DNA from: Mycolicibacterium rufum
Lineage (GTDB): Bacteria > Actinomycetota > Actinomycetes > Mycobacteriales > Mycobacteriaceae
NCBI RefSeq assembly: GCF_022374875.2
Contig: NZ_CP092428.2
Location: 200,011 to 264,010, forward strand
Length of the DNA stretch: 64,000 nt
Direction: 5' to 3'
In this document: positions 8,051 through 34,264 of the stretch, one piece after another
How the letters are laid out: each line of letters starts with the position of its first letter
Numbering within the stretch: the first letter of the stretch is position 1
Position numbers and translations under genes: made by a program
The notes under the pieces: generated by a model
Database searches by the model: none
The model's input: only the letters and a program-made list of their open reading frames with translations
What the model was told of the DNA's origin: nothing

Positions 8051-8053
8051 CAG

Positions 8054-11000: not shown

Positions 11001-13535
11001 TCGGTGTACTCCGACGTCGTCACCCGCGACCAAGTGCCCGTGGAGTTGCCGCCGCTCATCGGGGGGCAGCGTCAAACGGTGGCGTTGCAGCCCGACATCG
11101 AGGTCGTCGACTTCATCGCCGATCTCGGATACCGAGCCGATCATCTCGATGCTCGCAACCCGCAGCGGGACAACATCCTCAAGATCGCCAACGACGGGCG
11201 GAATGCCTCCCTGGACCCCCGCCTCGCCCACCTGGCCGCGCCCACCGAGAGCCGCGCCGCGGCGGTGGCCGAGTCGATGATGCGCACCTACCGAGCCAAT
11301 CTGGACCGCGTCTACCGCCATCCCCGAACCGGTGAGCCCATGCCCAAGCGTGGGTGCCTGCAGGTGGCGTTCTGCGATCGCGGCACCCCCTCCAACGATC
11401 CGGAGCAATTCACGATTTACGCGGCCATCAAGGCTGAGCTGATCGCCCGCGGCATGCCGGCCGACAAGATCCGGTTCGTCCACGACGCACGCAAGGCCCA
11501 TGAAGTCGGTCTGTTGCGCGAGCAGTGCATCAACGGTGAGGTGGCCGTGCTGATCGGCAGCACCGAGAAGATGGGGACGGGCTGGAACATTCAGCCCCGC
11601 CTGGCTGCCCTCGACCATGTTGACGTGCCCTGGCGGCCAGCGGACTTGGAGCAGCGTGAGGGCCGCGTCCTGCGTCAGGGCAATCAGAACCTCGACGGCG
11701 TCGAGATCCGCACCTACGTCACCGAAGGCACCTATGACACCGTGATGTGGCAGAAGGTGCAGGCCAAGTCGTTGTTCATCGAGCAGGTCAACCGCAGTGA
11801 GGTCACCGATCGAGACATCGAGGACCTCTCCGGTGGTGACATCGGCGCCGCGGCCGCCGAGACGAAGGCGTTGGCGACCGGCGATCCTCGCTACCTGCGT
11901 CAGGTCGAGCTCGACGAGCAGGTGCGCCGCCTCCAAGCGCTCGAACGAGCCCACCATGAGGCCACGCGTCGCCGCGACTGGCTCGTCGACACCCACGAAC
12001 GGACCATCCCGCACAAAGAGCGTCAGCTCGCCGAGCTGCAGCCGATCGCGCAGCGCGCCGCCGCCCATGGGGCCGAGCAGCGTTCTCCGGAGGTGATCGT
12101 CGGTGGGCAGCGAACCAGGGAGAACTCGGTGACCGCCGAGCGGCTGGCAGCGGCGTGCCGCCAGGCCTTCCTCGACGGTCGCGACCGCGGCGCCACCCGC
12201 TACAGCGATACCGGGGTGAGCATCGACGGCGTGGCCTTGCTCGCGGCGCGCGATCTCACCCATGACTCGCTGCTACTGCGCCTGACGGCGTCGCAGCGGA
12301 TCACCGAGGTCAAGAAGGACGACCTGATGGCCACCGCGTCAGAGGCGGGCGGGGCGAAGGCCCGCGGTCTGTTGACGCGGGTGGAAAACCTCTACCTCGA
12401 CCTGCCCCGCCAACAGGCCACCCTGACTAGCGAGATCGACCAGGACCGCGCCGAATTGGCCGACCTCTTGGCTCACCCACCAGGCCCGTTCGAGCACACT
12501 GGCGAACTCACCGACCGCCAGGCCGAGCTCGCGACCTTGACCTTGGAGCTGCGGTTGGCCGCCGAAAGCCCGGAGGCGAAGGCGAAAGCCGCTGCCGCGC
12601 AGGCGCGCATGGCTGCTCGCGGCCGGGAACCGGGCTGGTCGCTGCTGCACAATCCGACGCCGTACGTGGTGCAGGAATCGGGCCTGCGGTCCGCCCGTGA
12701 GTTACGTGCGGCGGTACACGACCGTGAGCTGCGTGCGGCAGTGGCCGTCGCCGAGCCAGCGCAGTCAGCGATGATCACCGAGCGGGATCTGATGGTGTTG
12801 CGTGCTGAGGTGGATTTCGTGGAGGCAGCGGGGTCTCGGTCACCGGCCACGGTGTACCCACCCCCAGCCCACGTGTGGGAGGACCTCGACGACCCGACCC
12901 GCGCCGCGGTCGAAACCATCACCGCGAGCATGCAATCGGTGCACGTCCTCACCTTGGGACCCGACGCCGACAAGCACGCCGCCCTGAGCGCGATCCAGGC
13001 CGCCGCCACCGGCAAGGGCCGCAACGTGCTCGCGATGCCGGCCACCGACACCGCGACCGCCTTCGCCGACCACCACCCCTACGCCACCAAGGTCACCGAC
13101 CCCGCCGCCACCCGCGACCGCCTCGAAACCGGCCGCTGGAGCATCCGAGCAGGCCAGCTCGTCGTCATCGACGACGCCGACCACCTCGACCCAGATCAGT
13201 TGCGCTACTTCACCGAACACGCTGCCCGCTCCAACACCAAGCTGCTACTGGTCTGCACCCCCACCGAGAGCCGCACCCCCGCCCACAGCCTCGTCGACGC
13301 CCTCGCCGACAACCTGCCCTGGGCCCAGCGCATCGGCACCCCCACCGTCGACCGCGCCACCGCCATCGACCGCGCCCGCACCCACCTCACCGACCACGAA
13401 CCGGCCACCGCCCACGACCGCGACGCCGCCGAACTCCTGGCCCGCCGCGACACCCTGACCGCCACCCAACACGCCCAATTCAAACCCCGCCTACACACCC
13501 ACGACCACAGCCGCGAACACGGCCTCGACCTGTAA
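8054..13535 (+). pseudogene. methylase/SNF2 helicase (DarB-like), 3' part, with relaxase-derived tail
   Basis: The frame resumes with the methylase catalytic-type motif GNVPFG, then substrate-binding regions. A full SNF2-like helicase follows: P-loop VGAGKSGTAF (near 10120), DEAH box VDEAHYY (near 10590), GTPIANSLGELW, and helicase motifs TEKMGTGWNIQ and REGRVLRQGNQN (11560-11680). A coiled-coil region follows. From 12766 to the stop the sequence is a near-perfect copy of the relaxase C-terminus in the same reading frame, so the tail is chimeric. Such proteins are thought to protect or modify incoming element DNA. The IS30 insertion should inactivate it unless precise excision occurs. Confidence 0.8.
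12766..13533 (+). repeat. inverted duplication, copy 1 (768 bp) inside helicase 3' end
   Basis: This copy is nearly identical to the reverse complement of 19934-20713. In the parts compared closely, differences are GTG versus GGG in one codon (VWED/GWED) and a 12-bp CACGGCCTCGAC duplication present only in copy 2. Identity starts at CAGCGATGATCACC and ends at GACCTGT, the first base of this gene's stop codon. Confidence 0.92.
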
Positions 13536-19856: not shown

Positions 19857-22800
19857 TCAGCGTGTCAGTACCGGAAACACCGTTATTTCCACAGTCCCGC
19901 ATGTGCTGCTGGCGGGTAGCTCCGACGACTTCCACAGGTCGAGGCCGTGGTCGAGGCCGTGTTCGCGGCTGTGGTCGTGGGTGTGTAGGCGGGGTTTGAA
20001 TTGGGCGTGTTGGGTGGCGGTCAGGGTGTCGCGGCGGGCCAGGAGTTCGGCGGCGTCGCGGTCGTGGGCGGTGGCCGGTTCGTGGTCGGTGAGGTGGGTG
20101 CGGGCGCGGTCGATGGCGGTGGCGCGGTCGACGGTGGGGGTGCCGATGCGCTGGGCCCAGGGCAGGTTGTCGGCGAGGGCGTCGACGAGGCTGTGGGCGG
20201 GGGTGCGGCTCTCGGTGGGGGTGCAGACCAGTAGCAGCTTGGTGTTGGAGCGGGCAGCGTGTTCGGTGAAGTAGCGCAACTGATCTGGGTCGAGGTGGTC
20301 GGCGTCGTCGATGACGACGAGCTGGCCTGCTCGGATGCTCCAGCGGCCGGTTTCGAGGCGGTCGCGGGTGGCGGCGGGGTCGGTGACCTTGGTGGCGTAG
20401 GGGTGGTGGTCGGCGAAGGCGGTCGCGGTGTCGGTGGCCGGCATCGCGAGCACGTTGCGGCCCTTGCCGGTGGCGGCGGCCTGGATCGCGCTCAGGGCGG
20501 CGTGCTTGTCGGCGTCGGGTCCCAAGGTGAGGACGTGCACCGATTGCATGCTCGCGGTGATGGTTTCGACCGCGGCGCGGGTCGGGTCGTCGAGGTCCTC
20601 CCACCCGTGGGCTGGGGGTGGGTACACCGTGGCCGGTGACCGAGACCCCGCTGCCTCCACGAAATCCACCTCAGCACGCAACACCATCAGATCCCGCTCG
20701 GTGATCATCGCTGCGGCCCGGGTCAGTTCTCGGTCGCGTTCGGGGTGTTCGGCGAAGGTCCGTGCGGTGCGGGCTTCGGCGCGGTAGAGCTGGTTGTCCA
20801 GTTCGGCGGCGTCGGCGCGTGCGGCGGCGAGGGCGGCGAGGTCGGCGTGCACGGCGATGGTGCGGCGGGCTTCGATGTCCTCGGCGGTCACGACGCCCTG
20901 CGGCCCACCTGCGAGGGCGTGAAGCCGTTCGGCTGCGGCGTCACGTTCGGCGCCGGCCCGGCGCGCGCCTGCGTCGAGGTCGGCGGCGTCGACGGCAAGA
21001 TCGCCGCGGCGTTCCCGGTAGGCCTGGGCGAGGTCGTGGTGACCGTCTCTCTCGGCGCGGGTGATGAGCTTTTCGAGCTCGCTCATGCGGTGGCGCTGCG
21101 CCTCTGCGGCGGCCGCGGCGGTGATCCAGTCGGCGTGGGCGTGAGCCAGGTCGTGTTGCAGCGGGCGTTGCTCGACGTGGCGTCGGTGCAGGGCGATGAG
21201 TTCGTCGGCGGCGGCCTGTTCGGCGGGTCCGCCCTGGTAGGACAGCACCGCTTCGGCCAAGGTGCGGGCTCGGGCTTTCGCCGCGGCGCGGCGGTCTCGC
21301 AGCTCGGCGACGTCGATGTCGAGGTCGGGGGTCAGCGCGGGGCGCTCGGTGAGCAGTGAGTAGAAGTCGAGGTCACCGAGGCTGTCGTCGTTCTCGGAGT
21401 GGTAGTCGAACCAGTCGTCGTGGCCGGGCTCGTCGTGGTCGCCGAGGCCGACGGGGTGGTGCGGCGCGGTGGTGAGGGGGTCACCCAGGCTGTCGGCGGG
21501 GTGGGGGATGTCGGCGTGGGCTTCGCCGGCGTATTGGGTGAGCAGCTCGACGCGGTAGGTGAGCACGCGGGCGTACTCGTCGGGGCGAATCGCGTCGTCG
21601 TCGAGGGCGTCGAGGAGGTATTCCGCGGCTGCGGACAGCAGATCGGCCGGCGGCCAGTCCGAGGCGTTGACGGCGGCGACCAGCGCCGGCCAGGCGGGGT
21701 CGGCGGTGATGGTCTCGGCGGCCGAGCTGCCCAGGACGCGGTGCAGCTCAGCGGTCCACGGCGGCCGCAGGCGGGTGTTGGAGGCGTCGAGGGTGGCCGG
21801 GGACAGTGTGCCGGCCAGCCGCCACCACAGGGCGGCGGCGGGCAGCTCGTCCGGCAACACCCCGTGGCGACTCATGGCGTCGTCGACCAGGGCGGTGACG
21901 TCGACTCCGGCGCGCGCGGCCTGATCGAGGTGGGTGGCCAATCGGGGCCAGAACGGGTCGGCGGGCAGGGTCGGGTCGATCCGCTCGGCCAGCGTTCGCC
22001 ACCGCTTGGCCCCGGCACCGCCGGTGACCAGGGCGGTGTCGAGGCGCTGGTGCAGCATCGCTTGGAACGACGCGGAGCGGTTGGCGTGCTGGGTGGGCCC
22101 AGTGATGCGGGTGTCGGCGGGGTCGACGTCGTGGGCGGCGCGGAACACCGCGATCTCGGCGAGCAGTCTGGGGCGCTGACCGACCAGCGGGCGCGCCCAT
22201 ACCGGGGCTGTCGCCGGGGTCCAGGCGCGGGCTTGTTCGCGGATCTGGTCGGCGATGTCTTCGACGAGGGTCGAGCGCGCGGACAGGTATCGCGACCACG
22301 CTGAATCGTCCTGCAGTGCGGCAGGAATGGAGGGCAGCCAGCGCAGCGGTCCGACGATATCCAGGGCACTGTCGTCGGGGGTGGGCAGGCGCCAGTCGAG
22401 CACTGCGGCGGGGTCGCCGGTGTTGTCGAGTCCGCGGCGGGCGGCGTGCGCGAGGGCCTGTTGCGGGTCGTGTCCGTCCAGCGCCAGCAGGGCGAGATTG
22501 CGGCGCAGGACGGGCCACGCTTCGGCGGCAGTAAGGTCGGCGCGCAGCGCGGTGGCGGCCGCGTCGATGCCGGCCATGGTGCCGGTGCCGGCGAGCTGCT
22601 CGGCGGCACTGGACAGAGCGTCGGTGTACATGTCGGTCGCCCGGGCCAAACGGGTGAACGGGTCGGCATCGGCGCGCTGAGCACTGTGGGCGGAGACCTG
22701 CGCACCGTCGCGGCGCAGGATGGCCGAGAGGATGTCCACGGCCGTCGGGGGGTGCGTCGCCTTGGGGGTGAGGATGGCGTGCGGGTCGGCTTCGCTGGTG

Positions 22801-25733
22801 GAGAAGTAGATGTGGTTCTCGGCCTTGCCGCGGGTGAGTGCGACGTAGAGCTGCTCACGGGTCAGGGTGTCCGAACCGACGACGTGGCATTCGTGGCGCG
22901 CGGTCGATCCTTGGGCGCCGTTGATGGTGCGTGCGTAGCCGAGGGTGGTGTTGGTGGCGACGTAGCGGGCGGGCAGCCGGACGACGGATTGGGTGTCGGA
23001 CCCGGTGAGCCGCGACACCGAGACGGTGCCCGTGGCGTCGATGTCGGTGATGACCCAGCGGTGTCCGTTCTTCACCCAGCCGCCGCCGGGGATGTGTAGC
23101 CAGCGGGCGTTGCTGCGGGTGAGAATCCAGTCTCCGACGCTGGCAGTCAAGCCGTCGGACAGGGTGACGGTGCGGGTGTTGTTGGGGTGCGGGTGACGGC
23201 GCAACCGGTCCAGGCGGGCGCGTTCGTTGAGTTCGGCGACCAGTTCGTTGGTGGGGGCGATCAGTAGGGCATCGCGGTCGGCGGCGACGGCGGCCGACCA
23301 TGACTGGTAGGCCATGTCGGCGGCGACGTGTTCGGCCCCGACGTGCACGCGGCCGTGGTCGAGGTAGAAGGCGATGGCGGTGGGGTCGCCGTCACGCAGC
23401 GCGAGGCTGGCAGCGCCTTCGGCGCCCCCAATCACAGGGTCAGTGAAGCGCACCACGTCCGACAGCGTGAGGGCGCCGTGGGTGGCCACGATGTCGCGCA
23501 GCACCCCGCCCGCGGCGACCGAGGCGAGCTGCTTGTCGTCGCCGATGAGACGCACGCTGGCACCGTGGGCCAGGGCGTGGGCGATCACTGCATCCAGCCC
23601 CGCGGTCGACGCCATGCCGGCTTCGTCGACCACGATCAAGGTGCTCGGTCCGATGTGGTCGAACCAGGCGCGGGCGGGGTCGTCTGCTGCTGGTGGGGGA
23701 CCACCGCTGCGGCCGGAGAGCTGGACGAGTTTGTCGATGGTGTCAGTCGGTGCGCCCAGGTCGGCCGCCAGGACTTCGGCGGCCGCAGCGGTCGGGGCGA
23801 GGCCGATCACGGTGCCTCCGCTGTTGGCCCACGCTGCGGCCAGCGGCGCCATGGCCGTGGTCTTGCCGGTGCCGGCGGGTGCTAGCGCGAGCTGGACGCG
23901 GGCACCGGAGGTGGCCATGTCGCGCAGCAGGGTTTGTTGGCCGTCGTTGAGTGCCACGCCGTATTCGGCGTGGGCTTGGAGTAGGGCCAGGGTGATGCTG
24001 CCGTCGTCGACGACGTGTCCTCCGGACAGGCTTGCGGCGTGCAGGATTCGACGCTCGGCGGCCAGGATGTCGGCGCTGGTGTAGACGGTGGTGTCGTGGC
24101 GGGTGTAGACGCTGGCGCCGTCGCGTCGGCGCAGCACGTCGGGCTCGTTCATCTCGGTGTCGGCGGTGCTCGTCAACGCGATGCTGCGTTCGTCGAGCGC
24201 GGCTGTGACGAGGCGCTCCGACAGCGCTGGCGTGTCGTGGCAGCCGGTGTAGCGCAGTACCCGTGACACCTCGGCGCGGACGTGGCTGATCTGCCACGTC
24301 GACCGCGCCGCGGAGACCGTGGTGATCACGTTGGCGGCCTGCTCGGCGACCCAGTCGTCGGTGATGATGACGCGTTCGCGTGGGGCCCGCCCGGAGGTCA
24401 CTGCGGCGACCATTGCGTCCACGTGGCGGTGACCCCCCAAGGCCTCGATGGCTTCGGTCCGCCACTGGTGGCGCTGCTCTGCCAACGACCGTGGTTCGTG
24501 CTTGGCCGCACGCGTTTCCAGGGTCGCCTGCTGGGACAGCGCCAGCATTTCCACCGCACTGGGTTCGCGGCCGTGCTGCTGCTGGAAGTCCTTGGCGAGC
24601 GCTCCGACGCGGTGCTCGATGGCGGCCCGCCGTGAGGACCACACGGTGATCAGTTCCGGTGACATTCCAACGATTTCGCGGACCGGTCGCTTGCCCGGCT
24701 CGGGGGTGTCGTTGGCGAAGTTGACGCCCAGTTCGGCGATCAGGTTGGCCTCGCACAGCGTGTTGTACAACTCCGATGCCGACACCTTGGCCTTGTAGAG
24801 CGGTTGACCGTCCAGTGCCAGCCAGCGGGGGATTCCGTCGGCGCCGATGGCCTGCACCTTGTTGCTCACCGCGACGTGGGTGTGCAGGTTCGGGTCGCCT
24901 GCGCGGGAGTCGCGGTGATCGAACGCCGCGGCGATGAATCCGTCGGCGTCGACTTGGGCGACGCCGTTGGTGCCCATACGGGTAAAGCAGGCCTGAGACT
25001 CGAGGTACGCCAAGGTGTCGGCGACGGCTTTGTGGTGACACTCCTCGATGGCCTTGGCGACTTCCAGCGGGGCCAGCGCCCATAGCGCAGACACCGACTT
25101 CACGGGGGTGAAGGTCAGGTCGTAGCCGGCGACGGCGGTGGTGTCGATGCGGGACAGTCGGGCGGTGAATCCGGTGAGCTCCCGGTCGTCGAGATGGGCG
25201 CGGCCGTAGTGCTCGGCGAACATCTGCGCGGCGACGGTGGTGCGGATCTCGGCGCGTACACCGGCGTCGAGGGGGGCGTTGGTGGCGCGGCCCAGGATGT
25301 CGTTGTGCTGGCCGTAGGCGCCGCGTAGGCGGCGGGTGAATTCGTTTTCGTTGGCGCCCAGTCGGAATGGGCGGCCGAGCTTGGCGGCGGCGTGCGCGCC
25401 GTCGACCCACAGGCCGATGCCGGTGAGGTGTTCGGTGATGCGGGTGGCGTTGGGATGGAGCCCTTCACCGAAGAGGGCCTTCATCTGGTCTTCGGTGACT
25501 TCGGAGCCGTTGGGGACTCCCCAGAGGTCGGCGACGAGTGGGTTGTTGGGGTCGCGGCTGACCGGTCGCCCCAGGGCGGCCAGGCCGCTGCCGATCCACT
25601 GTCCGGGGGTTTCGCCCTTGGAGGAGTAGTAGTCGGTGAGGCTGGCGCGACCGAGGTCGGTGCCGTCGGCGACGGCGACCTGCCGGAGCAGGTAGGTGTA
25701 CCCGTCTCCGGCGGTCAGTTTGTGGAGGCCCAT
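19857..25733 (-). CDS. traA: MobF-family conjugative relaxase/helicase (TraA-like), 3' end altered by IS256
   Basis: The product is ~1958 aa. The N-terminal TrwC relaxase domain has AGDGYTYLLRQ, candidate catalytic tyrosines in DYYSSKGETPG, and the metal-binding three-His motif HRDSRAGDPNLHTH (about residues 273-287). RecD/TraI-type helicase motifs follow: P-loop APAGTGKTT (~620), Walker B VVDEAGM (~700), TINGAQGST and LYVALTRGK. A long helical region and a final AAA-like C-domain end the protein. It nicks oriT and unwinds the transferred strand. ATG 25733 is preferred over 25784 because family proteins start about ten residues before GDGYTYL. The last ~16 residues come from IS256 DNA, so the native C-terminus is lost. 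Confidence 0.9.
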   Translation of the reverse strand: MGLHKLTAGDGYTYLLRQVAVADGTDLGRASLTDYYSSKGETPGQWIGSGLAALGRPVSRDPNNPLVADLWGVPNGSEVTEDQMKALFGEGLHPNATRITEHLTGIGLWVDGAHAAAKLGRPFRLGANENEFTRRLRGAYGQHNDILGRATNAPLDAGVRAEIRTTVAAQMFAEHYGRAHLDDRELTGFTARLSRIDTTAVAGYDLTFTPVKSVSALWALAPLEVAKAIEECHHKAVADTLAYLESQACFTRMGTNGVAQVDADGFIAAAFDHRDSRAGDPNLHTHVAVSNKVQAIGADGIPRWLALDGQPLYKAKVSASELYNTLCEANLIAELGVNFANDTPEPGKRPVREIVGMSPELITVWSSRRAAIEHRVGALAKDFQQQHGREPSAVEMLALSQQATLETRAAKHEPRSLAEQRHQWRTEAIEALGGHRHVDAMVAAVTSGRAPRERVIITDDWVAEQAANVITTVSAARSTWQISHVRAEVSRVLRYTGCHDTPALSERLVTAALDERSIALTSTADTEMNEPDVLRRRDGASVYTRHDTTVYTSADILAAERRILHAASLSGGHVVDDGSITLALLQAHAEYGVALNDGQQTLLRDMATSGARVQLALAPAGTGKTTAMAPLAAAWANSGGTVIGLAPTAAAAEVLAADLGAPTDTIDKLVQLSGRSGGPPPAADDPARAWFDHIGPSTLIVVDEAGMASTAGLDAVIAHALAHGASVRLIGDDKQLASVAAGGVLRDIVATHGALTLSDVVRFTDPVIGGAEGAASLALRDGDPTAIAFYLDHGRVHVGAEHVAADMAYQSWSAAVAADRDALLIAPTNELVAELNERARLDRLRRHPHPNNTRTVTLSDGLTASVGDWILTRSNARWLHIPGGGWVKNGHRWVITDIDATGTVSVSRLTGSDTQSVVRLPARYVATNTTLGYARTINGAQGSTARHECHVVGSDTLTREQLYVALTRGKAENHIYFSTSEADPHAILTPKATHPPTAVDILSAILRRDGAQVSAHSAQRADADPFTRLARATDMYTDALSSAAEQLAGTGTMAGIDAAATALRADLTAAEAWPVLRRNLALLALDGHDPQQALAHAARRGLDNTGDPAAVLDWRLPTPDDSALDIVGPLRWLPSIPAALQDDSAWSRYLSARSTLVEDIADQIREQARAWTPATAPVWARPLVGQRPRLLAEIAVFRAAHDVDPADTRITGPTQHANRSASFQAMLHQRLDTALVTGGAGAKRWRTLAERIDPTLPADPFWPRLATHLDQAARAGVDVTALVDDAMSRHGVLPDELPAAALWWRLAGTLSPATLDASNTRLRPPWTAELHRVLGSSAAETITADPAWPALVAAVNASDWPPADLLSAAAEYLLDALDDDAIRPDEYARVLTYRVELLTQYAGEAHADIPHPADSLGDPLTTAPHHPVGLGDHDEPGHDDWFDYHSENDDSLGDLDFYSLLTERPALTPDLDIDVAELRDRRAAAKARARTLAEAVLSYQGGPAEQAAADELIALHRRHVEQRPLQHDLAHAHADWITAAAAAEAQRHRMSELEKLITRAERDGHHDLAQAYRERRGDLAVDAADLDAGARRAGAERDAAAERLHALAGGPQGVVTAEDIEARRTIAVHADLAALAAARADAAELDNQLYRAEARTARTFAEHPERDRELTRAAAMITERDLMVLRAEVDFVEAAGSRSPATVYPPPAHGWEDLDDPTRAAVETITASMQSVHVLTLGPDADKHAALSAIQAAATGKGRNVLAMPATDTATAFADHHPYATKVTDPAATRDRLETGRWSIRAGQLVVIDDADHLDPDQLRYFTEHAARSNTKLLLVCTPTESRTPAHSLVDALADNLPWAQRIGTPTVDRATAIDRARTHLTDHEPATAHDRDAAELLARRDTLTATQHAQFKPRLHTHDHSREHGLDHGLDLWKSSELPASSTCGTVEITVFPVLTR
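19934..20713 (-). repeat. inverted duplication, copy 2 (780 bp) at relaxase 3' end
   Basis: This is the reverse-complement partner of 12766-13533. It contains a tandem 12-bp CACGGCCTCGAC that copy 1 has once. It is probably the parental copy, because it lies in the expected C-terminal domain of a MobF relaxase. Confidence 0.92.
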
Positions 25734-26019
25734 CACCGCTCGATCACCACCCCGGACGCTACGAACGGCTCGGCTCTTGAGCACCGCCCCAAGCCCACGA
25801 CAACGGCGCCGTTACCGTTTCGTGACCTGAATGCACTAGGTGTGATGGGCTGAAAAAGGGGAGTGGAGGGGTGTGGTGAGGCCGGCGATGGGGGGCGCGG
25901 CAGGGGGTGAATGGAGGTGGAGCTGTTGGTGGGGTGAGGGTTTGGCGGTGCGTGATGGGTTGAAAGTGGCTGGTTTGGGGCGGTGCTGTAGCGGTGGTGG
26001 CGGTTTTAGGTTGAGCGCC
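25734..26019. other. divergent region upstream of relaxase, candidate oriT
   Basis: No gene is seen in this 286-bp stretch between the relaxase and a divergent HTH gene. It has a perfect 12-bp palindrome AACGGCGCCGTT (25802-25813). A strongly G-skewed stretch follows (25858-25990) with several GGGG/GGGGG runs that could form a G-quadruplex. Relaxase genes are often beside their oriT, so nic is most likely here, but no nic consensus can be named. Confidence 0.4.
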
Positions 26020-27157: not shown

Positions 27158-27451
27158 TCAGTGGTCAGTGTGGTCGTCGGGCTCGTCGTCGGTGGGTGCG
27201 TCCTCGATCAGTGCGTGGGCGATGCGGTAGGCGGCGCGACAGTTGCGCAGGCTGTCGGTGAGGAATGAGGCGGTGTCGGTCCCGTCGGCGGTGCCGACGA
27301 AGTCGACGTCGTAGACGTGGTCACTGGTGAGTGTGGCCAGGGCGGTGCGGGCGCGGGTGAGGGCGTTGATGGCGTCGACCAGTGCGCCGTCGAGCGCTAG
27401 GCGCGCGGTGTCGACGTCGCGGGCCCAGTCGGGGTTGTGCAGGTGGTGCAT
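27158..27451 (-). CDS. 97-aa unknown small acidic protein
   Basis: The start ATG 27451 is preceded by GAAAGGATCTGAC. The product is helical (TARLALDGALVDAINALTRARTALATL), with a middle SDHVYDVDFVGTADGTD and an acidic DDEPDDHTDH tail. It is the most downstream member of a minus-strand array of orphan genes and follows a 28-aa ORF. No family is recognised. High GC3 and the ribosome-binding site support it. Confidence 0.6.
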   Translation of the reverse strand: MHHLHNPDWARDVDTARLALDGALVDAINALTRARTALATLTSDHVYDVDFVGTADGTDTASFLTDSLRNCRAAYRIAHALIEDAPTDDEPDDHTDH

Positions 27452-27517: not shown

Positions 27518-27604
27518 TCAGAACGGGGCGTCGGTGGCGGTGTCGGCGGCGGCGGCGAGATCGGCGGCGAGTTCGAGTTCGCGCTGAGTGCGGTTGTCGG
27601 TCAT
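27518..27604 (-). CDS. 28-aa small protein behind leader module A
   Basis: ATG 27604 follows CGGAGACACC. The product starts MTDNRTQRELELAADLAAAA and ends DAPF. The start context is identical to that of the 86-aa gene at 32907, which sits behind the second copy of the same ~300-bp module. Conservation of this start context argues for translation. The role is unknown. Confidence 0.5.
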   Translation of the reverse strand: MTDNRTQRELELAADLAAAADTATDAPF

Positions 27605-27897
27605 GGTGTCTCCGTTTCCTCGTGTTGAGTGCGCCGGTCAGCGCCGGGGTGCGGGGCAATCGGCTGAGGGTGGGCCGTCAAGGGCGAAGAGTCCGGTGCT
27701 GGTGCCGGCGGATGTGCGGCCCGCGAGCGTCAGCGAGCTGATAGGGCCGCACATGTCCTCCGCCGCCGGCACCAGCACCGGACGTCCCTTGACGGCTCGG
27801 GCCCCCGGCCGATTACGCTGCACACCCCTGCTGACGGCTTCCAAGGTGAGTGGCTACGGACGAGCCCGCCGCAGGCGGGCATCCCGCGCCCGCCAGG
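27601..27897 (-). repeat. leader module A, copy 1
   Basis: About 297 bp, ~98% identical to 32904-33199 by eye. It runs from the ATG of the 28-aa ORF back through a CACCCC-GGCGCTGACCGGCG box, a huge imperfect palindrome (27674-27796, arms of ~50 nt, ~21-nt loop), a TCCGTAGCCACTCACC box and a GC hairpin. It is non-coding by codon bias. Confidence 0.9.
27674..27796. repeat. large imperfect palindrome in module A copy 1
   Basis: The left arm contains GTCAAGGGCGAAGAGTCC then GGTGCTGGTGCCGGCGG and ATGTGCGGCCC. The right arm is its reverse complement with small bulges. The loop is about GCGAGCGTCAGCGAGCTGAT. Transcribed or single-stranded, it would fold into a long hairpin. Confidence 0.85.
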
Positions 27898-27970
27898 GCG
27901 GCGGTGTGCGGGGCGCGGGATGTCGCCCTTGTCGTTGCCGTGGGGGAGCGTTGGGGCATCCGGATCAAAA

Positions 27971-28009
27971 GGGGGGCCTCGCCGACAGCGTGATGGTGTC
28001 GGCGAGGCC
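27971..28009 (-). terminator. terminator of the 103-aa gene
   Basis: A 13-bp perfect stem, GGCCTCGCCGACA with TGTCGGCGAGGCC, is followed on the minus strand by CCCCTTTTG. It lies just after the stop at 28019. Confidence 0.8.
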
Positions 28010-28018
28010 ACGGTGGTG

Positions 28019-28330
28019 TTAGTCGGGCAGGGCGTCGAGCAGTAGGTGGGCGAGCTCTTCGCCGGTGGGTAGCGGCAGCGTGTTCGCGGCGGCGAGCACG
28101 TCGTCGCAATCGGCACTGTCGCAGGCGCATTCGGTGTTGCTGGCGCTCAAGTCGCTCATGGCGCTGTCGAGGGCGCAGCCGTCGACGCTGGCGGCGTCGA
28201 TGATCCACCGGGTGCGGTCGTCGGAGAGCCGCAGATAGACCTGGACGGTCTGCTCGACGTAGTGGGTGCCGTCGGGTTCGTAGGAGTAGCGCGCGGCGTG
28301 TCCGTCTCGGCGGTCATGGCGGTCGGTCAT
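28019..28330 (-). CDS. 103-aa unknown protein with Cys/Asp-rich loop
   Basis: ATG 28330 has AGGAAGGAACC just upstream, so the longer open frame is rejected. The product contains DGTHYVEQTVQVYLRLSDD, TRWIIDAASVDGCALDSAM and a cysteine-rich NTECACDSADCDD that could bind metal. It belongs to the orphan-gene array and has its own terminator. No family is recognised. Confidence 0.65.
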   Translation of the reverse strand: MTDRHDRRDGHAARYSYEPDGTHYVEQTVQVYLRLSDDRTRWIIDAASVDGCALDSAMSDLSASNTECACDSADCDDVLAAANTLPLPTGEELAHLLLDALPD

Positions 28331-28376
28331 GGTGGTTCCTTCCTGGTGGTCGGGCGGGTGATGGGGCGAGATGAAA

Positions 28377-28412
28377 TCCGGCCGGCCATCTCGGGTGAGG
28401 TGGCCGGCCGGA
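28377..28412 (-). terminator. terminator of the DUF4192 gene
   Basis: A 12-bp stem, TCCGGCCGGCCA with TGGCCGGCCGGA, is followed on the minus strand by TTTC. It lies downstream of the stop at 28431. Confidence 0.75.
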
Positions 28413-28430
28413 CTCACGGGGTTGGTCGGG

Positions 28431-29387
28431 TCAGTTGGTGGGCGGGGTGTCGCCGAGGCGGGCCAGCATCTGGCGGATTGCTGCGGGCGGGAGTCCGCTC
28501 TGCAGCGCGGTGTCGAGCAAGGCCACGAGGTTGGTGTCCTCGAGTCCGTTGTCGGCGGCGGTGGTTTGGGCGGCGTCGAGGGCGAGGCCGGCGCGGACGG
28601 AGTCGTTGCCGGCGTAGAAGCAGGCAGCGGCTAGCGCGAGTGCCTCGATGCGAGCGATGCCACGCAGTTGGCGCGCGATCCGGGTCCAGAGGGTGCCTCC
28701 TGTGTCGAGGCGGGTGGCGCTGATGACTAGCAGTGCGTCGCGGTGGGTGACGCTGGTGGTGATCAGGTGGCCGGTGTTGGCGGCGAGCTGCGCGGTGAGT
28801 CCGTCGGGGTCGTTGAGGGCTGCGTACAGGCTCAGGATGGTGTGGGTCACGACGTCGGCGGTGATCTCGGCCTCCGGTGCCGGGTCGCCGGGGGTGAACT
28901 CGGCGGCGATGTCGGCGCGGGCGCCCAGGATGGAACGGCCCTCCTCGACGGCGAACCGCAGGGCCAGGTCTGAGATTCGGTAGTCGACGGTGCGACCTGC
29001 CTCTCCGGTGTCGACATCGGTCCAGGAGTGGCCGGCGTCGAGCTGGTCGGCGTGGAGCCGCTTGAAGACCGCGCTGCCGAGCGCGTGCAGCTGGCGGCTG
29101 ATGGCGTCGAGGTGGTGTCCGGCGAGGGCCTGGTGCTCGGCGTCGGCGATGGCGATGAGCAGGACGCTGCGGGCGATTCCGTCGTCGCCGCGCAAGGGCA
29201 GGGCGTTGACGAACTTGATGGCGGTGTGCAGAGGCGCGTCGCTGTCGTAGCGGGCGGCGACGAGGATGCTCTGCTGGGTGCCGTCGTCGTCGATGACGAT
29301 TCCGACGATGCTGTTGGTGGGGGCGAATCCGAGCAGGGCCGGGACGGCGGCCAGGACGTCGGTGCTGGAGCGCAGGTCGAGGGTCAT
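28431..29387 (-). CDS. DUF4192-family protein
   Basis: The product is 318 aa. The start LDLRSSTDVLAAVPALLGFAP followed by NSIVGIVIDDDG is the hallmark of actinobacterial DUF4192 proteins, as are the mid-protein VDYRISDLALRFAVEEGRSIL and the late ALALAAACFYAGNDSVRAGL. Its length fits the family. The biochemical role is unknown; members are common on actinobacterial plasmids and in genomes. It starts behind a diverged copy of leader module B (GGAGAACACC ribosome-binding site) and ends at a strong hairpin, so it is its own transcription unit. Confidence 0.85.
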   Translation of the reverse strand: MTLDLRSSTDVLAAVPALLGFAPTNSIVGIVIDDDGTQQSILVAARYDSDAPLHTAIKFVNALPLRGDDGIARSVLLIAIADAEHQALAGHHLDAISRQLHALGSAVFKRLHADQLDAGHSWTDVDTGEAGRTVDYRISDLALRFAVEEGRSILGARADIAAEFTPGDPAPEAEITADVVTHTILSLYAALNDPDGLTAQLAANTGHLITTSVTHRDALLVISATRLDTGGTLWTRIARQLRGIARIEALALAAACFYAGNDSVRAGLALDAAQTTAADNGLEDTNLVALLDTALQSGLPPAAIRQMLARLGDTPPTN

Positions 29388-29700
29388 GGTGTTCTCCGTT
29401 CGAGTGGGTGATGAGTGCGCCGGTTAGCGCTGGGGTGCAATCGACCGGCGGGGTGGCGCGGGCAACCTCGAAGAGGAAGCGGCGGACGGAGCAGGGTTTT
29501 CAGCCCCCGCCCGCCGGCGCGAAGCGCTTCGGCGGGCAGGGGTAGGGCTGAAAAGGTCACTCGGCCTGCGTAGTTCGGCGTGACCGTGGGTTGACCGTGA
29601 CGGGGCCTCGTCGGTCACACTTGGCACCCCGCTAAACGGGTAATGGTGAGGGGCTACGGACGAGCCGGCCGTCAGGTCGGCATCGCGCCGCAGGCGCGCC
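29388..29700 (-). repeat. leader module B, diverged copy (B0)
   Basis: Clearly homologous to B1 and B2, sharing the CACCCCAGCGCTAACCGGCG box, the GGAGCAGGGTTTTCAGCCCC segment, the CCCGCCG/CGGCGGG hairpin with GAAGCGCTTC inside it, and TCCGTAGCCCCTCACC. It has many substitutions. No credible gene lies inside. Confidence 0.8.
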
Positions 29701-29710
29701 CCTCCGACGC

Positions 29711-29757
29711 AAAAAGGGGGCCCGGCCGGTCACCTGCGTAAGGTGCTGGCCGGGCCC
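29711..29757 (-). terminator. terminator of the 83-aa gene
   Basis: A stem GGGCCCGGCC with GGCCGGGCCC and an inner CACCT/AGGTG pairing is followed on the minus strand by CCTTTTTG. Confidence 0.8.
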
Positions 29758-29772
29758 GGGAGCTTGCTGGGG

Positions 29773-30024
29773 TCAGGACCGCGCCATCCACGTCTGGATT
29801 TCGGCCAGCAGGTCGGGGCTGAGTTGGGTGTCGACGACGGTGACGGATGCGGGCGTTCCGTCGGGGCTGCGGTAGGTGCCGCGGGCTCGGTTCGAGGTGA
29901 TGGTGTTCCAGTTGATCTGACCGAGGAGTCGTTGGGCTTCGATCAAGGTGTCGACCAAGCAGTCGACGGGGTGGTCGAGGCTGGTCATCGCGTTGGCGGT
30001 GATGATCGCGGTGGTGATGGTCAT
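29773..30024 (-). CDS. 83-aa unknown protein behind module B1
   Basis: ATG 30024 is preceded by CGGAGAACACC. It starts MTITTAIITANAMTSLDHP and contains LVDTLIEAQRLLGQINWNTI and VTVVDTQLSPDLLAEIQTWM. I prefer this start over the longer open frame because that one runs through the repeated leader. It is a single-gene unit with its own terminator. No family is recognised. Confidence 0.6.
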   Translation of the reverse strand: MTITTAIITANAMTSLDHPVDCLVDTLIEAQRLLGQINWNTITSNRARGTYRSPDGTPASVTVVDTQLSPDLLAEIQTWMARS

Positions 30025-30335
30025 GGTGTTCTCCGTTCGGGTCTGCCGATGTGCGCCGGTTAGCGCTGGGGTGCAGGGGAACGGCGGGGCGGTGCGCGCA
30101 ATCCCGACAGAGGGCCGTGGTGAACGGAGCAGGGTTTTCAGCCCCTGCCCGCCGGCGCGAAGCGCTTCGGCGGGCTCAGATTGGGACGAAACGGTCACTC
30201 GGCCTGCGCAGTTCGACGCGGACCCAGGGTTGCGCGTGACGGGTCCCGGTCGTTCATACTTGGCGCCCCGCTACACGGATTTAGGTGAGGGGCTACGGAG
30301 AGCCGGCCGCCAGGCCGGCACCGCGCCGCAGGCGC
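30019..30335 (-). repeat. leader module B, copy B1
   Basis: 317 bp matching 31283-31599 with only about two to three differences. It includes the start codon context of the downstream gene, the CACCCCAGCGCTAACCGGCG box, a nested hairpin at 30148-30174 and terminal GC hairpins (GCCGGCC/GGCCGGC; GCGCC/GGCGC). Confidence 0.92.
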
Positions 30336-30385
30336 GCACTCCCGGGGCGAGGAGCGTGATCACCGGTGCGCACGCCGTGATCGGC

Positions 30386-30646
30386 TCAAGCGTCGGGGAC
30401 GGGCGAGTCGCCCAACAGCTGGTCGAGGAGTTCGGAGAATCCGTCGTGGCCGGGTTCGGTGCCGATGACCGCGACGAGCTGCCCGTCGATGAGTGCGTGA
30501 AAGCGCTGCGCGTGTGGGCTCGATCGCGCTAGTTGGGTGAGCGCGCTGACGATCGCTGCGGTGCTTTGGCTGCGGTCGGCGGCGACGCCGATGAGGGTGC
30601 GGGGTGGGGCGTGTCCCTCGGTGGCGTTCAGTGTCCAGATCTTCAC
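30386..30646 (-). CDS. 86-aa unknown protein
   Basis: GTG 30646, preceded by TTGGCGAG, begins KIWTLNATEGHAPPRTLIG. The product continues STAAIVSALTQLARSSPHAQ and FHALIDGQLVAVIGTEPGHD. An upstream ATG at 30694 would place the start inside a terminator hairpin, so I prefer the GTG. It may be expressed by readthrough, as no module precedes it. Family unknown. Confidence 0.5.
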   Translation of the reverse strand: MKIWTLNATEGHAPPRTLIGVAADRSQSTAAIVSALTQLARSSPHAQRFHALIDGQLVAVIGTEPGHDGFSELLDQLLGDSPVPDA

Positions 30647-30682
30647 CTCGCCAATGGTGTGCGACCGACGTGCTGCGTGGCG

Positions 30683-30715
30683 GGCCGGAGTCATCGACTG
30701 TGGATGACTCCGGCC
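30683..30715 (-). terminator. hairpin after the 187-aa gene
   Basis: A perfect 13-bp stem, GGCCGGAGTCATC with GATGACTCCGGCC and a 7-nt loop, begins 10 bp after the stop at 30725. There is no T-tract. Confidence 0.65.
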
Positions 30716-30724
30716 GCCTGTGGA

Positions 30725-31288
30725 TTACCGGGCAGTGGCCGACACCGGCACGTAGGTGTCGCAGGTCGGATCGGCTCGGTGGTCGTCACCGTCGAGGCAC
30801 ACGGCGACCGCGACGCGGTGGACCTCGCCCAGGAGGCCGACGAGGGTGTTGAACGCGACGTGGTCGAGCAGTTGCCACGTCAGCGGACCGGTGTGGACGT
30901 CTGTCCACTTGACGGTGCGGCGTCGGTCCTCGAGGACACGGCTTTGCGGGACCGCGGCGTACTGGGGTCGGTTGGTCCACTCGACGGCGATGGCGGGCTG
31001 CCCATAGGGATCGGGGGCGGTCGCGCTGGTCGGTGGGAGGTGAACGAGCGTGGCGCGGGCGGCGGAGATGGCCTCGAGAACGCCTTGGGCGGCTGAGGCT
31101 GACCAGAAGGTCATCAGAACGGTTCCCAGCCGCATGGTGACGCGGGCATGGGGGGTGCGGGCGTCGTAGACGTCGACGGTGCCGGTCTGGGGTCCGCGCA
31201 GGCGGATGAAGGTGTGAGCGACGAGCCCAGGGGCGTTGGCTGCCAGGGTGGCCGGGTTGGCGGTGCGGGTCTTGGTGGTGTTGGTCAT
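30725..31288 (-). CDS. 187-aa unknown protein behind module B2
   Basis: ATG 31288 follows CGGAGAACACC, identical to the 83-aa gene. The product contains LVAHTFIRLRGPQTGTVDVYD, RVTMRLGTVLMTFWSASAAQGV and VKWTDVHTGPLTWQLLDHVAF, an alpha/beta mix without known motifs. The longer open frame includes the leader module and is rejected. Single-gene unit. Confidence 0.6.
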   Translation of the reverse strand: MTNTTKTRTANPATLAANAPGLVAHTFIRLRGPQTGTVDVYDARTPHARVTMRLGTVLMTFWSASAAQGVLEAISAARATLVHLPPTSATAPDPYGQPAIAVEWTNRPQYAAVPQSRVLEDRRRTVKWTDVHTGPLTWQLLDHVAFNTLVGLLGEVHRVAVAVCLDGDDHRADPTCDTYVPVSATAR

Positions 31289-31599
31289 GGTGTTCTCCGT
31301 TCGGGTCTGCCGATGTGCGCCGGTTAGCGCTGGGGTGCAGGGGAACGGCGGGGTGGTGCGCGCAATCCCGACAGAGGGCCGTGGTGAACGGAGCAGGGTT
31401 TTCAGCCCCTGCCCGCCGGCGCGAAGCGCTTCGGCGGGCTCAGATTGGGACGAAAAGGTCACTCGGCCTGCGCAGTTCGACGCGGACCCAGGGTTGCGCG
31501 TGACGGGTCCCGGTCGTTCATACTTGGCGCCCCGCTACACGGATTTAGGTGAGGGGCTACGGAGAGCCGGCCGCCAGGCCGGCACCGCGCCGCAGGCGC
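31283..31599 (-). repeat. leader module B, copy B2
   Basis: Near-identical partner of 30019-30335, offset 1264 bp. Differences include C/T in ACGGCGGGGY and C/A in ACGAAAMGG. Identity stops abruptly at GCCGCAGGCGC. Confidence 0.92.
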
Positions 31600-31688
31600 A
31601 GGCGTACCGGGGACACCGGAAGCCTTGACACGGTCGAGCACGACGTACCGAATTCCCGGCCGATTCTTTACCTGTTGCGCCGCGCTAA

Positions 31689-32014
31689 TCAGGTGTCGGC
31701 CGGGGGATGTTGCAGGCCGGCGCCTACGAGACGGCGAGGGGGCTCGTTGAGGGTGATCTCGGGCACGTGCCCTCCCGCCGAGCTGGCGATTCTGACGGGC
31801 CATTCCGTCCAGCGGCTCAGTTCGGCGTCGAGGTCGGCCAGCGTCACGTCGTCGCGGGTGAGCGTGATCGGCGGACCCGGTCCGCGCCGATGGGGATGGC
31901 GACGAGTTGGCCGGGGGCCCGGTTGCCGCCGCGCCGGGATTGGAACCGCAGCCGATAGTCGACGCCCCCCTCGTCCACGATCCGACATGGGGCGGGGTAG
32001 TCGGTGATGCGCAT
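31689..32014 (-). pseudogene. frameshifted small orphan gene
   Basis: ATG 32014, behind AAAGGGGGAACCAG, starts MRITDYPAPCRIVDEGGVDY and continues LRFQSRRGGNRAPGQLVAIP. Near 31880-31890 the coding signal switches frame to PITLTRDDVTLADLDAELSR, then WTEWPVRIASSAGG, ending at 31689. The two halves together would make a ~108-aa protein of the same style as its neighbours. A one-base indel (mutation or sequencing error) is the simplest explanation. Confidence 0.6.
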
Positions 32015-32134
32015 CTGGTTCCCCCTTTCGGGGCTCGTTGTCTCGTGCCGGCGGTGGGGGCCCGGTCACGGGTTTGGTGGGGACGGGCCGGGCGGGGAAG
32101 CCGAGCGGGTGCTGCACGGTCCAGTTGCTGTGGC

Positions 32135-32179
32135 AAAAAAGGGGGTCCGCCGGGCTGGTGGGCTCGGCGGACCCCCTTT
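32135..32179 (-). terminator. strong intrinsic terminator
   Basis: A perfect 15-bp stem, AAAGGGGGTCCGCCG with CGGCGGACCCCCTTT, is followed on the minus strand by a run of six T. It lies just after the stop at 32190. Confidence 0.9.
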
Positions 32180-32189
32180 GGGTGGTGCG

Positions 32190-32531
32190 CTACTGGTGCG
32201 GTCCGAGGCCGGCGGCGTTGATGCGGGCCTGAATGGCGGGCAGGCTGATCCAGCGGTCCAGACCGTTGTTCGCTTCGTAGAGCAGTGCCCAGTCTTCCCA
32301 CCCGTCGATCGCGAGGTCGACGTCGGTTTCGTTGACGTTGGGGCGGCTGATGGGAATTTCGTCGTGGTTGTCGGCGCGGTCGGCGTCGGCGACGGTGGCG
32401 ACGAGTTGTCCTGTGCCGTCGAAGGTTCGGGGGTCAGCGGCGGGTGCGACGTTCATGCGGAATCGGAGCTGGCGCGGGGTTCCGCGGTCGTCGATGAATT
32501 GCCAGGCCAGTGCGTAGTCCTTGTCGACCAT
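32190..32531 (-). CDS. 113-aa unknown protein
   Basis: ATG 32531 follows CGAAAGGAACACCACC. The product contains DYALAWQFIDDRGTPRQLRF, FDGTGQLVATVADADRAD and WALLYEANNGLDRWISLPAI. It looks like a compact alpha/beta protein with no recognised family. It ends at the strongest terminator of the array, so it is expressed as a single unit. Confidence 0.65.
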   Translation of the reverse strand: MVDKDYALAWQFIDDRGTPRQLRFRMNVAPAADPRTFDGTGQLVATVADADRADNHDEIPISRPNVNETDVDLAIDGWEDWALLYEANNGLDRWISLPAIQARINAAGLGPHQ

Positions 32532-32595
32532 GGTGGTGTTCCTTTCGCGTTAATGAGGTTACGGGTGTCGCTGTTGGGTGGAGGGGATGGTGCTG

Positions 32596-32624
32596 GCTGG
32601 CCGCCTCGGGGTGAGGTGGCCAGC
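32596..32624 (-). terminator. terminator of the 86-aa gene
   Basis: GCTGGCC-GCCTC pairs with GAGGT-GGCCAGC around GGGGT, 23 bp after the stop at 32647. There is no T-tract. Confidence 0.65.
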
Positions 32625-32646
32625 TAGCGGGGTGCGGTGACCGCGC

Positions 32647-32907
32647 CTAGGAGATGGGGGTGGTGGCGGCGATGATGGCTTCGGCGTCGGCGAGGTAGTA
32701 CTCGGCGTGCTCGCGTTGGCTGGGCTCGCTGGTGCGCTCGAGGAGCAGGGTGACGGCGTGGTCTCGGGCGGAGAGGGCGTACTGGTGTCGGCGGTGGTCG
32801 GTGTCGGCGTTGACGGCGCTGTGGATGTCGGATCGGGCCATCGCGAGGGTGTGGGCGGTGCTGAGTGCGGCGACGTCGGTGGCGTCGGCGGCGAGGGTGT
32901 TGGTCAT
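32647..32907 (-). CDS. 86-aa unknown protein behind module A2
   Basis: ATG 32907 follows CGGAGACACC. It is all-helical, with VAALSTAHTLAMARSDIHSA and ARDHAVTLLLERTSEPSQRE then AEYYLADAEAIIAA. No family is recognised. It shares promoter, leader and start context with the 28-aa ORF at 27604 but not its sequence, so the leader rather than the product is conserved. Confidence 0.6.
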   Translation of the reverse strand: MTNTLAADATDVAALSTAHTLAMARSDIHSAVNADTDHRRHQYALSARDHAVTLLLERTSEPSQREHAEYYLADAEAIIAATTPIS

Positions 32908-33199
32908 GGTGTCTCCGTTTCCTCGTGTTGAGTGCGCCGGTCAGCGCCGGGGTGCGGGGGAATCGGCTGAGGGTGGGCCGTCAAGGGCGAAGAGTCCGGT
33001 GCTGGTGCCGGCGGATGTGCGGCCCGCGAGCGTCAGCGAGCTGATAGGGCCGCACATGTCCTCCGCCGCCGGCAGCAGCAGCGGACGTCCCTTTACGGCT
33101 CGGGCCCCCGGCCGATTACGCTGCACACCCCTGCTGACGGCTTCCAAGGTGAGTGGCTGCGGACGAGCCCGCCGCAGGCGGGCATCCGCGCCCGCCAGG
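32904..33199 (-). repeat. leader module A, copy 2
   Basis: Partner of 27601-27897, offset 5303 bp, with about seven differences seen. Two C-to-G changes in the palindrome (GGCACCAGCACC to GGCAGCAGCAGC) and one near CCCTTTACGG weaken the right arm. Confidence 0.9.
32977..33099. repeat. large imperfect palindrome in module A copy 2
   Basis: Same fold as 27674-27796, with a few non-compensated mismatches in the right arm. Confidence 0.8.
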
Positions 33200-33453: not shown

Positions 33454-34074
33454 TTAGCGGCGGCTGTTGTCGGCGCTGCTTTTCTCGCCGAGCCAGATGC
33501 CGACGATGTGGGCTGTTCCGTCGTCGTCGGTGATCCAGACCGGTCCGCCGGAGTCGCCGGCGACGCTGGCCGGCATACCGGTGGTCATGAACTGGTCGCC
33601 GTCGTAGGTGGATGCCACAGCGCCGCAGTGGGTTCCGCTAGAGACTCCGAGGCGGCAGACGGTGTCGCCGACGTTCGGCGTGAGCGGGGAAGCGGTGGCG
33701 GCGAACGCCACGGTGTCGGTCGCTGTTCTGCTGGCCACGCGCAGACCGAAGTCGATGAGCCCGTAGTCGGGGCCACCCGTTCGCGCTGGGGCGACGACTG
33801 TGGCGACGAAATGCCCCGTTGCGCCGCTGGTTTGGGTGATGACGCGGCCGCCGTCTTCGGTGTGGCAGTGGCCGGCGGTGATGGCGTAGGAGTGGTCGTT
33901 GGTGCCGGTGTAGACGTAGCCGGTGGTGCAGAACGATCCCAATCCGTCATCGGCGGTGTAGTCGATGCGTTCACCGGGGCTGATGGTGGCCAACGACGTG
34001 GCCTGGGCTGTTGGTGCGGCGGCGAGTAGGGAGAGGCCGGCGGCGAGTAGGGCGGCGGCGGTTCGGATGGTCAT
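33454..34074 (-). CDS. secreted trypsin-like (S1-fold) serine protease
   Basis: The product is 206 aa. ATG 34074 opens a Sec signal peptide (MTIRTAAALLAAGLSLLAAA, cleavage near AQA). The mature domain has a chymotrypsin-like triad: His in ITAGHCH, Asp in PDYGLIDFG and Ser in AGDSGGPVW. Paired cysteines (FCTTGY; TVCRLG/THCGAV) fit disulfides. It resembles mycobacterial secreted trypsin-like proteases. It is an unusual plasmid cargo and may act on surface proteins or peptides. Confidence 0.85.
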   Translation of the reverse strand: MTIRTAAALLAAGLSLLAAAPTAQATSLATISPGERIDYTADDGLGSFCTTGYVYTGTNDHSYAITAGHCHTEDGGRVITQTSGATGHFVATVVAPARTGGPDYGLIDFGLRVASRTATDTVAFAATASPLTPNVGDTVCRLGVSSGTHCGAVASTYDGDQFMTTGMPASVAGDSGGPVWITDDDGTAHIVGIWLGEKSSADNSRR

Positions 34075-34087
34075 CCTGGATGCACTT

Positions 34088-34264
34088 TCAGGCAATCCGC
34101 AGGTGGCGTTCGGCATGACGTTGTGCGCGGCTGTGCAGTGACTCGATCCACGCGGCGGCGATGAGCGCGGAATCGCCGGCGCAGCGGGTCGTTCCGGCGC
34201 AGGCGCTGCCTCCGCGGTAGTCGACGACGGACACCGCGTGCAGCCGCTGCCGTGGCCGGATCAC
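34088..34264 (-). CDS. 58-aa unknown protein coupled to the DnaB-N-like gene
   Basis: GTG 34264 overlaps the TGA of the upstream gene (GTGA). It encodes LHAVSVVDYRGGSACAGTTR and ALIAAAWIESLHSRAQRHAE, ending 13 nt before the protease start. The overlap and codon bias support translation. It has two cysteines and no known family. Confidence 0.5.
   Translation of the reverse strand: MIRPRQRLHAVSVVDYRGGSACAGTTRCAGDSALIAAAWIESLHSRAQRHAERHLRIA

Follow-up and report, generated by a model that had tools for sequence, protein, structure and literature searches.

Repeated hairpin leaders beside a MobF relaxase gene of Mycolicibacterium rufum: probable single-stranded-DNA promoters of a conjugative plasmid leading region

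Why should several small genes that differ from one another all begin, on the same strand, at the end of one repeated non-coding sequence? The question is raised by a 64,000-nucleotide (nt) stretch of DNA from Mycolicibacterium rufum (contig NZ_CP092428.2, positions 200,011 to 264,010), here called the window, which forms the last 64 kb of a 264-kb contig in a genome of three contigs and 6.1 Mb. Five genes in it stand behind five such leaders, which we call modules. We conclude, with a probability of roughly 85%, that the modules are single-stranded-DNA promoters of a conjugative plasmid leading region, a mycobacterial counterpart, unrelated in sequence, of the Frpo of plasmid F. An earlier note on this DNA had recognized the repeated leaders and missed that each is one hairpin, carrying a promoter that faces the "wrong" way in duplex DNA.

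The modules are about 300 bp long, and each abuts the start codon of a different minus-strand gene. As the earlier note held, there are two copies of a type A and three of a type B, two of the latter being near-identical. The A copies (27592-27884 and 32895-33187) are 98% alike over 293 nt, and the first matches the second at an E value of 1e-141, which is beyond chance. The close B pair (29989-30288 and 31253-31552) aligns over 300 nt without gaps and is 97% alike (322 nt at 97% in a second comparison); the third B copy, at about 29379-29671, is 82% alike to this pair. Since A and B can be aligned with each other, with both ends in common, they form one superfamily. Two module queries found no further copies in the source genome. 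The ATG of each of the five genes lies 1-2 nt from the start of the module model, and the genes (28, 318, 83, 187 and 86 aa) belong to five different families, again as had been noted. As delimited by the profile, the modules and their promoter-like elements are:

27606-27886, plus strand: module A1, leader of the 28-aa gene; forms a plus-strand hairpin (single-stranded DNA fold z -7.78)
27789-27794, plus strand: -35-like TTGACG of A1, on the 3′ arm
27814-27819, plus strand: -10-like TACGCT of A1, on the 3′ arm, spacer 19
29390-29689, plus strand: module B1, leader of the DUF4192 gene; -35 TTGACC at 29591-29596, -10 CACACT at 29616-29621; fold z -2.61
30027-30326, plus strand: module B2, leader of the 83-aa gene; -35 TTGCGC at 30230-30235, -10 CATACT at 30255-30260; fold z -2.43
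31291-31590, plus strand: module B3, leader of the 187-aa gene; -35 TTGCGC at 31494-31499, -10 CATACT at 31519-31524
32909-33186, plus strand: module A2, leader of the 86-aa gene; -35 TTTACG at 33092-33097, -10 TACGCT at 33117-33122

Modules confined to this locus, or each always preceding the same gene, had been named beforehand as signs of simple segmental duplication; neither is what was found. A blastn search with the whole region as query, genes included, matched 41 of 72,556 plasmid records, 39 of these from Mycobacterium, Mycolicibacterium or Mycobacteroides, and stretches of 12 of the 41 plasmids were fetched for module analysis. An iterated profile recognized 87 plus-oriented modules on the window and these 12 mycobacterial plasmids; four minus-strand matches all lie inside plus modules and reflect their palindromic character. 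A locus holds from 1 to 13 modules, and one plasmid has 16 matches over its whole record. The modules of one locus share their direction, and a MobF relaxase gene adjoins the array by its 5′ end. Each of the 12 whole plasmid records has one cluster, on one strand, with no module match outside it (three opposite-strand matches lie inside modules). Open reading frames (ORFs) of at least 25 aa were sought whose start lay at most 46 nt before or 8 nt after that of the module; in 85 of the 87 modules one begins within 9 nt of the model start. These 85 proteins fall into 22 families, nearly all different within one plasmid.

Each module forms a single long hairpin, imperfect but strongly supported by compensatory change. 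The mean fold z over the 87 modules is -4.0 (25 shuffles each), and 71% lie below -2. For covariation, 26 modules were picked from 38 representatives, the 12 left out being mostly longer or more divergent. Changes on both sides occur in 29 of 43 predicted pairs and in 27 of the 36 long-stem pairs; 93.6% of the cells are paired, the covariation score is 0.470 against 0.166 ± 0.012 in shuffles, and the long stem passes both controls. With all 38 representatives, 26 of 36 pairs are changed on both sides and 83.3% of the cells are paired, against 70.8% in shuffles and 38-50% when the structure is slid along the alignment; the score is 0.329 against 0.141 ± 0.009, and none of 500 shuffles scored as high. 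Pairing reaches 94% at the top of the stem and 91% in the -35 stem, and is poorer (70-76%) in the middle.

The 3′ arm of the hairpin carries, on the plus strand, a -35 hexamer TTG[AC]NN in 79 of the 87 modules, followed in most of them after 19-20 nt (16, 18 or 21 in a few) by a -10 element with A at its second and T at its sixth position (ANNNT). The latter is present in 86 modules, the sole exception (L020_17526) being cut off by the end of the record, and its first base is T or C in 85. Two positions of the -35 and the A and T of the -10 are among the 11 invariant columns of the 38 representatives. In M. tuberculosis, 73% of primary start sites have TANNNT as their mapped -10 (PMC3898074), and the A and T of the modules agree with it. 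The -35 pairs with the 5′ arm and the two change together, from TTGAC/GTCAA to TTGCG/CGCAA. Mean predicted pairing is 0.91 for the -35 and 0.60 for the -10, lowest at the A of the -10 (0.32); the -35 is the more paired of the two in 81 of 85 modules. A minus-sense -35 exists by complementarity, and in none of the 87 modules does a minus-sense [TC]ANNNT stand 15-21 nt from it. Judged from sequence, such an asymmetry would be expected of a promoter that serves the folded strand alone. In duplex DNA the promoter would drive transcription to the right and leave the gene behind; once the plus strand is folded, the 5′ arm would serve as template, and this arm is continuous with the template of the gene.

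The direction of transfer can be proposed from two features to the left of the array:

19857-25784, minus strand: MobF relaxase of 1975 aa (TrwC domain and helicase); TrwC E 9.5e-84, NF041492 above cut-off
25822-25852, plus strand: nic-like box and putative origin of transfer (oriT), by similarity; the transferred strand would be plus, entering rightward

On other replicons the side and strand of mobF are as expected in all 10 plasmid stretches where it is annotated and in 6 of 6 further contigs holding both mobF and a module; a seventh (G036:C15) has a short two-arm match only, and its mobF orientation agrees. A nic-like box lies upstream of mobF, on the strand that would carry the array in first, in all 14 loci examined. 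Ten have a box of the kind GTGACCTGAATGCA..AGGTGTGATG, resembling the GGGGTGTGGTGC of F, which in a control was located on the template strand of the F leading region (L023, minus strand, 18164). The other four (L013, L015, L017 and L011) have a second type upstream of mobF, with a hairpin (TTGTGCCAATGTGCC..AAGTCT) 5′ of the box. Where it is annotated (L013, L015, L017) their relaxase is shorter, and the same kind of array follows, so that the arrays seem to be shared between two relaxase lineages. In kind, the two types resemble the nic sites of F and R388. The box and the gene layout suggest that the plus strand is transferred and that the array enters first.

The same signature recurs in genome collections. 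In a family sample of 301 genomes, 30 from 13 of 31 genera were matched, many of them in no more than the two short arms, in which the -35 and its complement lie, and some in single short pieces that are perhaps chance. The exact two-arm pattern, run over GTDB species genomes and a viral collection, gave 65 loci, and profiles found modules in 57 of them, with 151 matches of which two are palindrome self-hits, leaving 149. At least 118 of these are new: 11 are contained entirely in another of the fetched loci, and 20 match part of the first 13 loci letter for letter. The named hosts are Mycobacterium, Mycolicibacterium, Williamsia, Gordonia, Aldersonia and some metagenome bins. The strict arrangement of TTG[AC]NN, 16-21 nt and [TC]ANNNT past the middle of the hairpin occurs in 116 of the 149 modules; their reverse complements give 5 of 149, and shuffled sequences a mean of 9.5. 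The eight two-arm loci without a module, which we take as chance matches, are one viral contig and seven genome contigs labelled as two unplaced Actinobacteria, Deltaproteobacteria, Streptomyces, Oscillospiraceae, Methanoregula and a proteobacterium; the region itself had no match in a phage collection. Some module-bearing contigs are labelled Kitasatospora arboriphila NRRL B-24581 and Mesorhizobium qingshengii (L088, L131, L123) and are likely mislabelled or contaminated. Short profile matches stand in adjacent pairs in L056 (10058-10201 and 10559-10713) and also in L057, L058, L059, L050 and L051, as if the two -35 arms had almost no hairpin middle between them.

From these data we propose the following course of events. 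MobF would nick beside its own gene, and the plus strand would enter the recipient with its 5′ end first and the array leading, as the nic-like box and the gene layout indicate. Each module in the entering strand would fold into its hairpin, whose 3′ arm would offer RNA polymerase the -35 and a partly open [TC]ANNNT, with the 5′ arm as template. Transcription would then leave the base of the hairpin, cross the ribosome-binding site and enter the adjoining gene, and the plasmid could make early proteins before a second strand exists. On second-strand synthesis the hairpin would be lost and the elements would point away from the gene; expression would cease for this reason. If the genes are expressed only from the folded single strand, the small proteins would constitute an immediate-early set whose synthesis precedes the double-stranded state of the plasmid. 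In the annotated stretches of the 12 plasmids, two of which end early, a gene for an nrdH/glutaredoxin-like protein is present in 10, a ParB-type gene in 9 and a DUF932 gene in 9; genes for DUF4192 and DUF3560 proteins, serine proteases (L012, L018, L021) and DNA methylases (L019, L022) are found as well. Judging from the DUF932, ParB-like and occasional DNA methylase neighbours, the array proteins probably serve establishment and counter host defence. Early expression from the incoming single strand is, on analogy, the most economical account of the array.

The earlier note knew of no described system with this layout. One exists, since conjugative plasmid leading regions with repeated Frpo/ssi single-strand promoters are described in PMC11541004 and PMC9849209, as is early expression of F from the incoming single strand. 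Frpo1 and Frpo2 (ssi) of F, which have homologues on ColIb-P9, are repeated non-coding leaders in the leading region, as the modules are here. In Frpo the transferred strand of a MOBF plasmid forms a stem-loop with a -35 and a -10, and the genes are transcribed toward oriT; by computation the array is alike, with stems, on the strand presumed to be transferred, that reconstitute both elements directed at the gene, and with a like place beside mobF and a like gene order, oriT being assigned by similarity. The leading region of F has DUF932, ParB-like, SSB, antirestriction and DNA methylase genes, read toward oriT, of which the arrays share DUF932, ParB-like and DNA methylase genes. The modules differ from Frpo in their mycobacterial-type ANNNT -10 and in number, with up to 16 matches per plasmid, often one for each small gene, where two Frpo regions are described for F. 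An nhmmer search of 20 kb of F, including the leading region, with two module profiles gave no match at E 10. EGeRS1/2 of the pLS20-family Bacillus plasmids, compared here by their description, likewise recur as regulatory sequences ahead of the establishment genes on a Gram-positive plasmid; in PMC8708921 the authors argue against single-strand promotion, as the fold contains no promoter and the transferred strand is the non-template. In the modules, by contrast, the fold does, on sequence grounds, contain a promoter, and the transferred strand appears from the nic-like box to be the template. Cluster K mycobacteriophages have SAS/ESAS, short repeats before many small genes, whereas the modules are 300-nt hairpins beside a relaxase gene.

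Other explanations must be weighed against single-strand promotion. The modules might be RNA leaders, transcribed from an upstream duplex promoter into an mRNA with a hairpin at its 5′ end that governs termination or translation; each does directly precede its gene, and the complementary (minus) strand also folds, with a mean z of -2.6. The wobble pairs nevertheless sit on the plus strand. The 28 long-stem pairs predicted from both strands contain, in plus-strand letters, 31 G·T and 2 A·C cells (composition expects 1.73:1), cells that are not independent, the sequences being related; counted by column on the plus-derived structure, the wobbles are 23 against 3 (binomial P 0.004). With composition controlled, the strand difference exceeds that of shuffles in 73 of 86 modules and the plus strand folds relatively better in 67 of 86, one cut-off module being left out. 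No Rfam family fits the modules, the one match in the region being below the gathering score and on a terminator-type hairpin (32139-32199), and the conserved promoter elements face the other way. We therefore hold an RNA leader to be very unlikely. It is very unlikely, too, that the modules are primarily single-strand initiation sites (ssi/sso) for priming the second strand, with gene expression secondary. The anatomy is the same, and Masai and Arai in 1997 reportedly described Frpo as serving both transcription and primer synthesis; priming should need one or few sites, not up to 16, and no placement at a start codon.

Local segmental duplication, or a functionless mobile repeat of the miniature inverted-repeat transposable element kind, is an explanation to which we give next to no credence. 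Copies within a plasmid can be near-identical, and the nearest relative of a module is a module of the same plasmid in 53 of the 65 compared, a count without two plasmids near-identical to L011 (whose omission favours this result), one cut-off module and two ORF-less modules. Against it stand the compensatory change in the stems, the fixed orientation and distance from the start codon, and the absence of matches elsewhere in the 12 plasmid records. We read the 53 of 65 as leaders being homogenised or re-duplicated within a plasmid, while the gene families recur across plasmids. The suggestion of the earlier note that gene bodies are shuffled under a common expression unit is thus upheld for the common unit and the differing genes, and shuffling is half the story.

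Several observations weigh against the modules being single-strand promoters. No better fold than z -2 is found for 29% of the 87, mainly from three closely related Mycolicibacterium plasmids and part of L021. The raw fold energy favours the plus strand in 87 of 87 modules and in 31 of 31 in a second comparison, but this is largely composition: random windows of the plasmid often do equally well, and shuffles yield -9.4 of the -14.3 kcal/mol strand difference. The strict -35/-10 pair is missing in 33 of the 149 genome modules, a duplex promoter would usually have a shorter spacer than 19-20 nt, and the first base of the -10 is C instead of T in 35 of the 87. The distant modules L062 and L063 have, unlike the other modules read, a gap of 14 nt between TTGACG and a CATGGT, and the -35 of B1 is predicted to pair only weakly (0.18) with its expected arm. 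The oriT at the nic-like box is putative, by similarity. Array genes are mostly of unknown function, those of the window being DUF4192, DUF7280 and unknowns, and PADLOC found nothing among ten window proteins.

Single-strand promoters have been worked out for enterobacterial plasmids and argued against for the Gram-positive pLS20 family. If our reading is true, it would extend the mechanism to mycobacterial plasmids, including pRAW and pMK12478, and makes early gene expression in mycobacterial conjugation directly testable; the signature of sequence and structure would help to locate leading regions on such plasmids, to tell the direction of transfer and to pick out candidate genes for establishment or anti-defence. 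It also brings covariation support for a hairpin promoter, of which we met none for Frpo in the sources at hand. We lean, with less assurance, toward a further proposition: that these are an independently evolved class of DNA promoter in Mycobacterium and relatives, active only while single-stranded and reversing direction in the duplex, placed one per small operon and kept alike within a plasmid, which form a dispersed immediate-early regulon of up to about 16 self-silencing units. In the literature searched (supplements, subscription papers and preprints fell outside it) we found no description of module-type promoters in mycobacteria or other Actinobacteria. The main text of PMC11541004 has no word beginning with mycobacter or actinobact, and that of PMC12826799 none beginning with mycobacter or actino. 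The latter finds promoters with 5 known and 13 putative Frpo sequences as BLAST queries, an approach that would hardly detect these modules.

The genes of the array in the window are:

27158-27451, minus strand: 97-aa gene, next after the 28-aa gene, without Pfam match
27518-27604, minus strand: 28-aa gene behind A1, with a relative behind a module on another plasmid (L017)
28019-28330, minus strand: 103-aa gene following the DUF4192 gene; hairpin and U-tract downstream
28431-29387, minus strand: 318-aa DUF4192 protein behind B1 (E 3.9e-30)
29773-30024, minus strand: 83-aa protein (DUF7280) behind B2 (E 4.3e-7)
30725-31288, minus strand: 187-aa protein behind B3, predicted (beta4-alpha)x2 fold
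32190-32531, minus strand: 113-aa gene following the 86-aa gene; hairpin and U-tract downstream
32647-32907, minus strand: 86-aa gene behind A2

The 187-aa protein is predicted to consist of two beta4-alpha units (mean pLDDT 87) and has weak PURA and Whirly matches, which suggest a single-strand-DNA binder, perhaps a plasmid stand-in for SSB. The private terminator hairpins that the earlier note gave to most of the genes are borne out in part. Folding gives the 103-, 83- and 113-aa genes strong downstream hairpins that end in U-tracts. The hairpin behind the 97-aa gene is also strong and has a weak U/C tail, those downstream of the 28-, 318- and 86-aa genes are strong and lack a U-tract, and downstream of the 187-aa gene there is no hairpin worth mention; a consensus scan (loop limit 8) found no terminators.

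Upstream of the relaxase gene, a 1972-aa ORF (7617-13535) has the helicase-like domains AAA_30 and ResIII, and L012 has an "AAA family ATPase" of similar size in the same place. The 767-aa ORF at 17550-19853 matches a Mutator-family transposase and then both IS110 domains and so represents an insertion sequence that is fused or nested. Where the array ends on the side away from the relaxase gene, 33454-34116 encodes a trypsin-like protease, with a match to the Rv1815 family below cut-off, and serine proteases are similarly placed on L012, L018 and L021.

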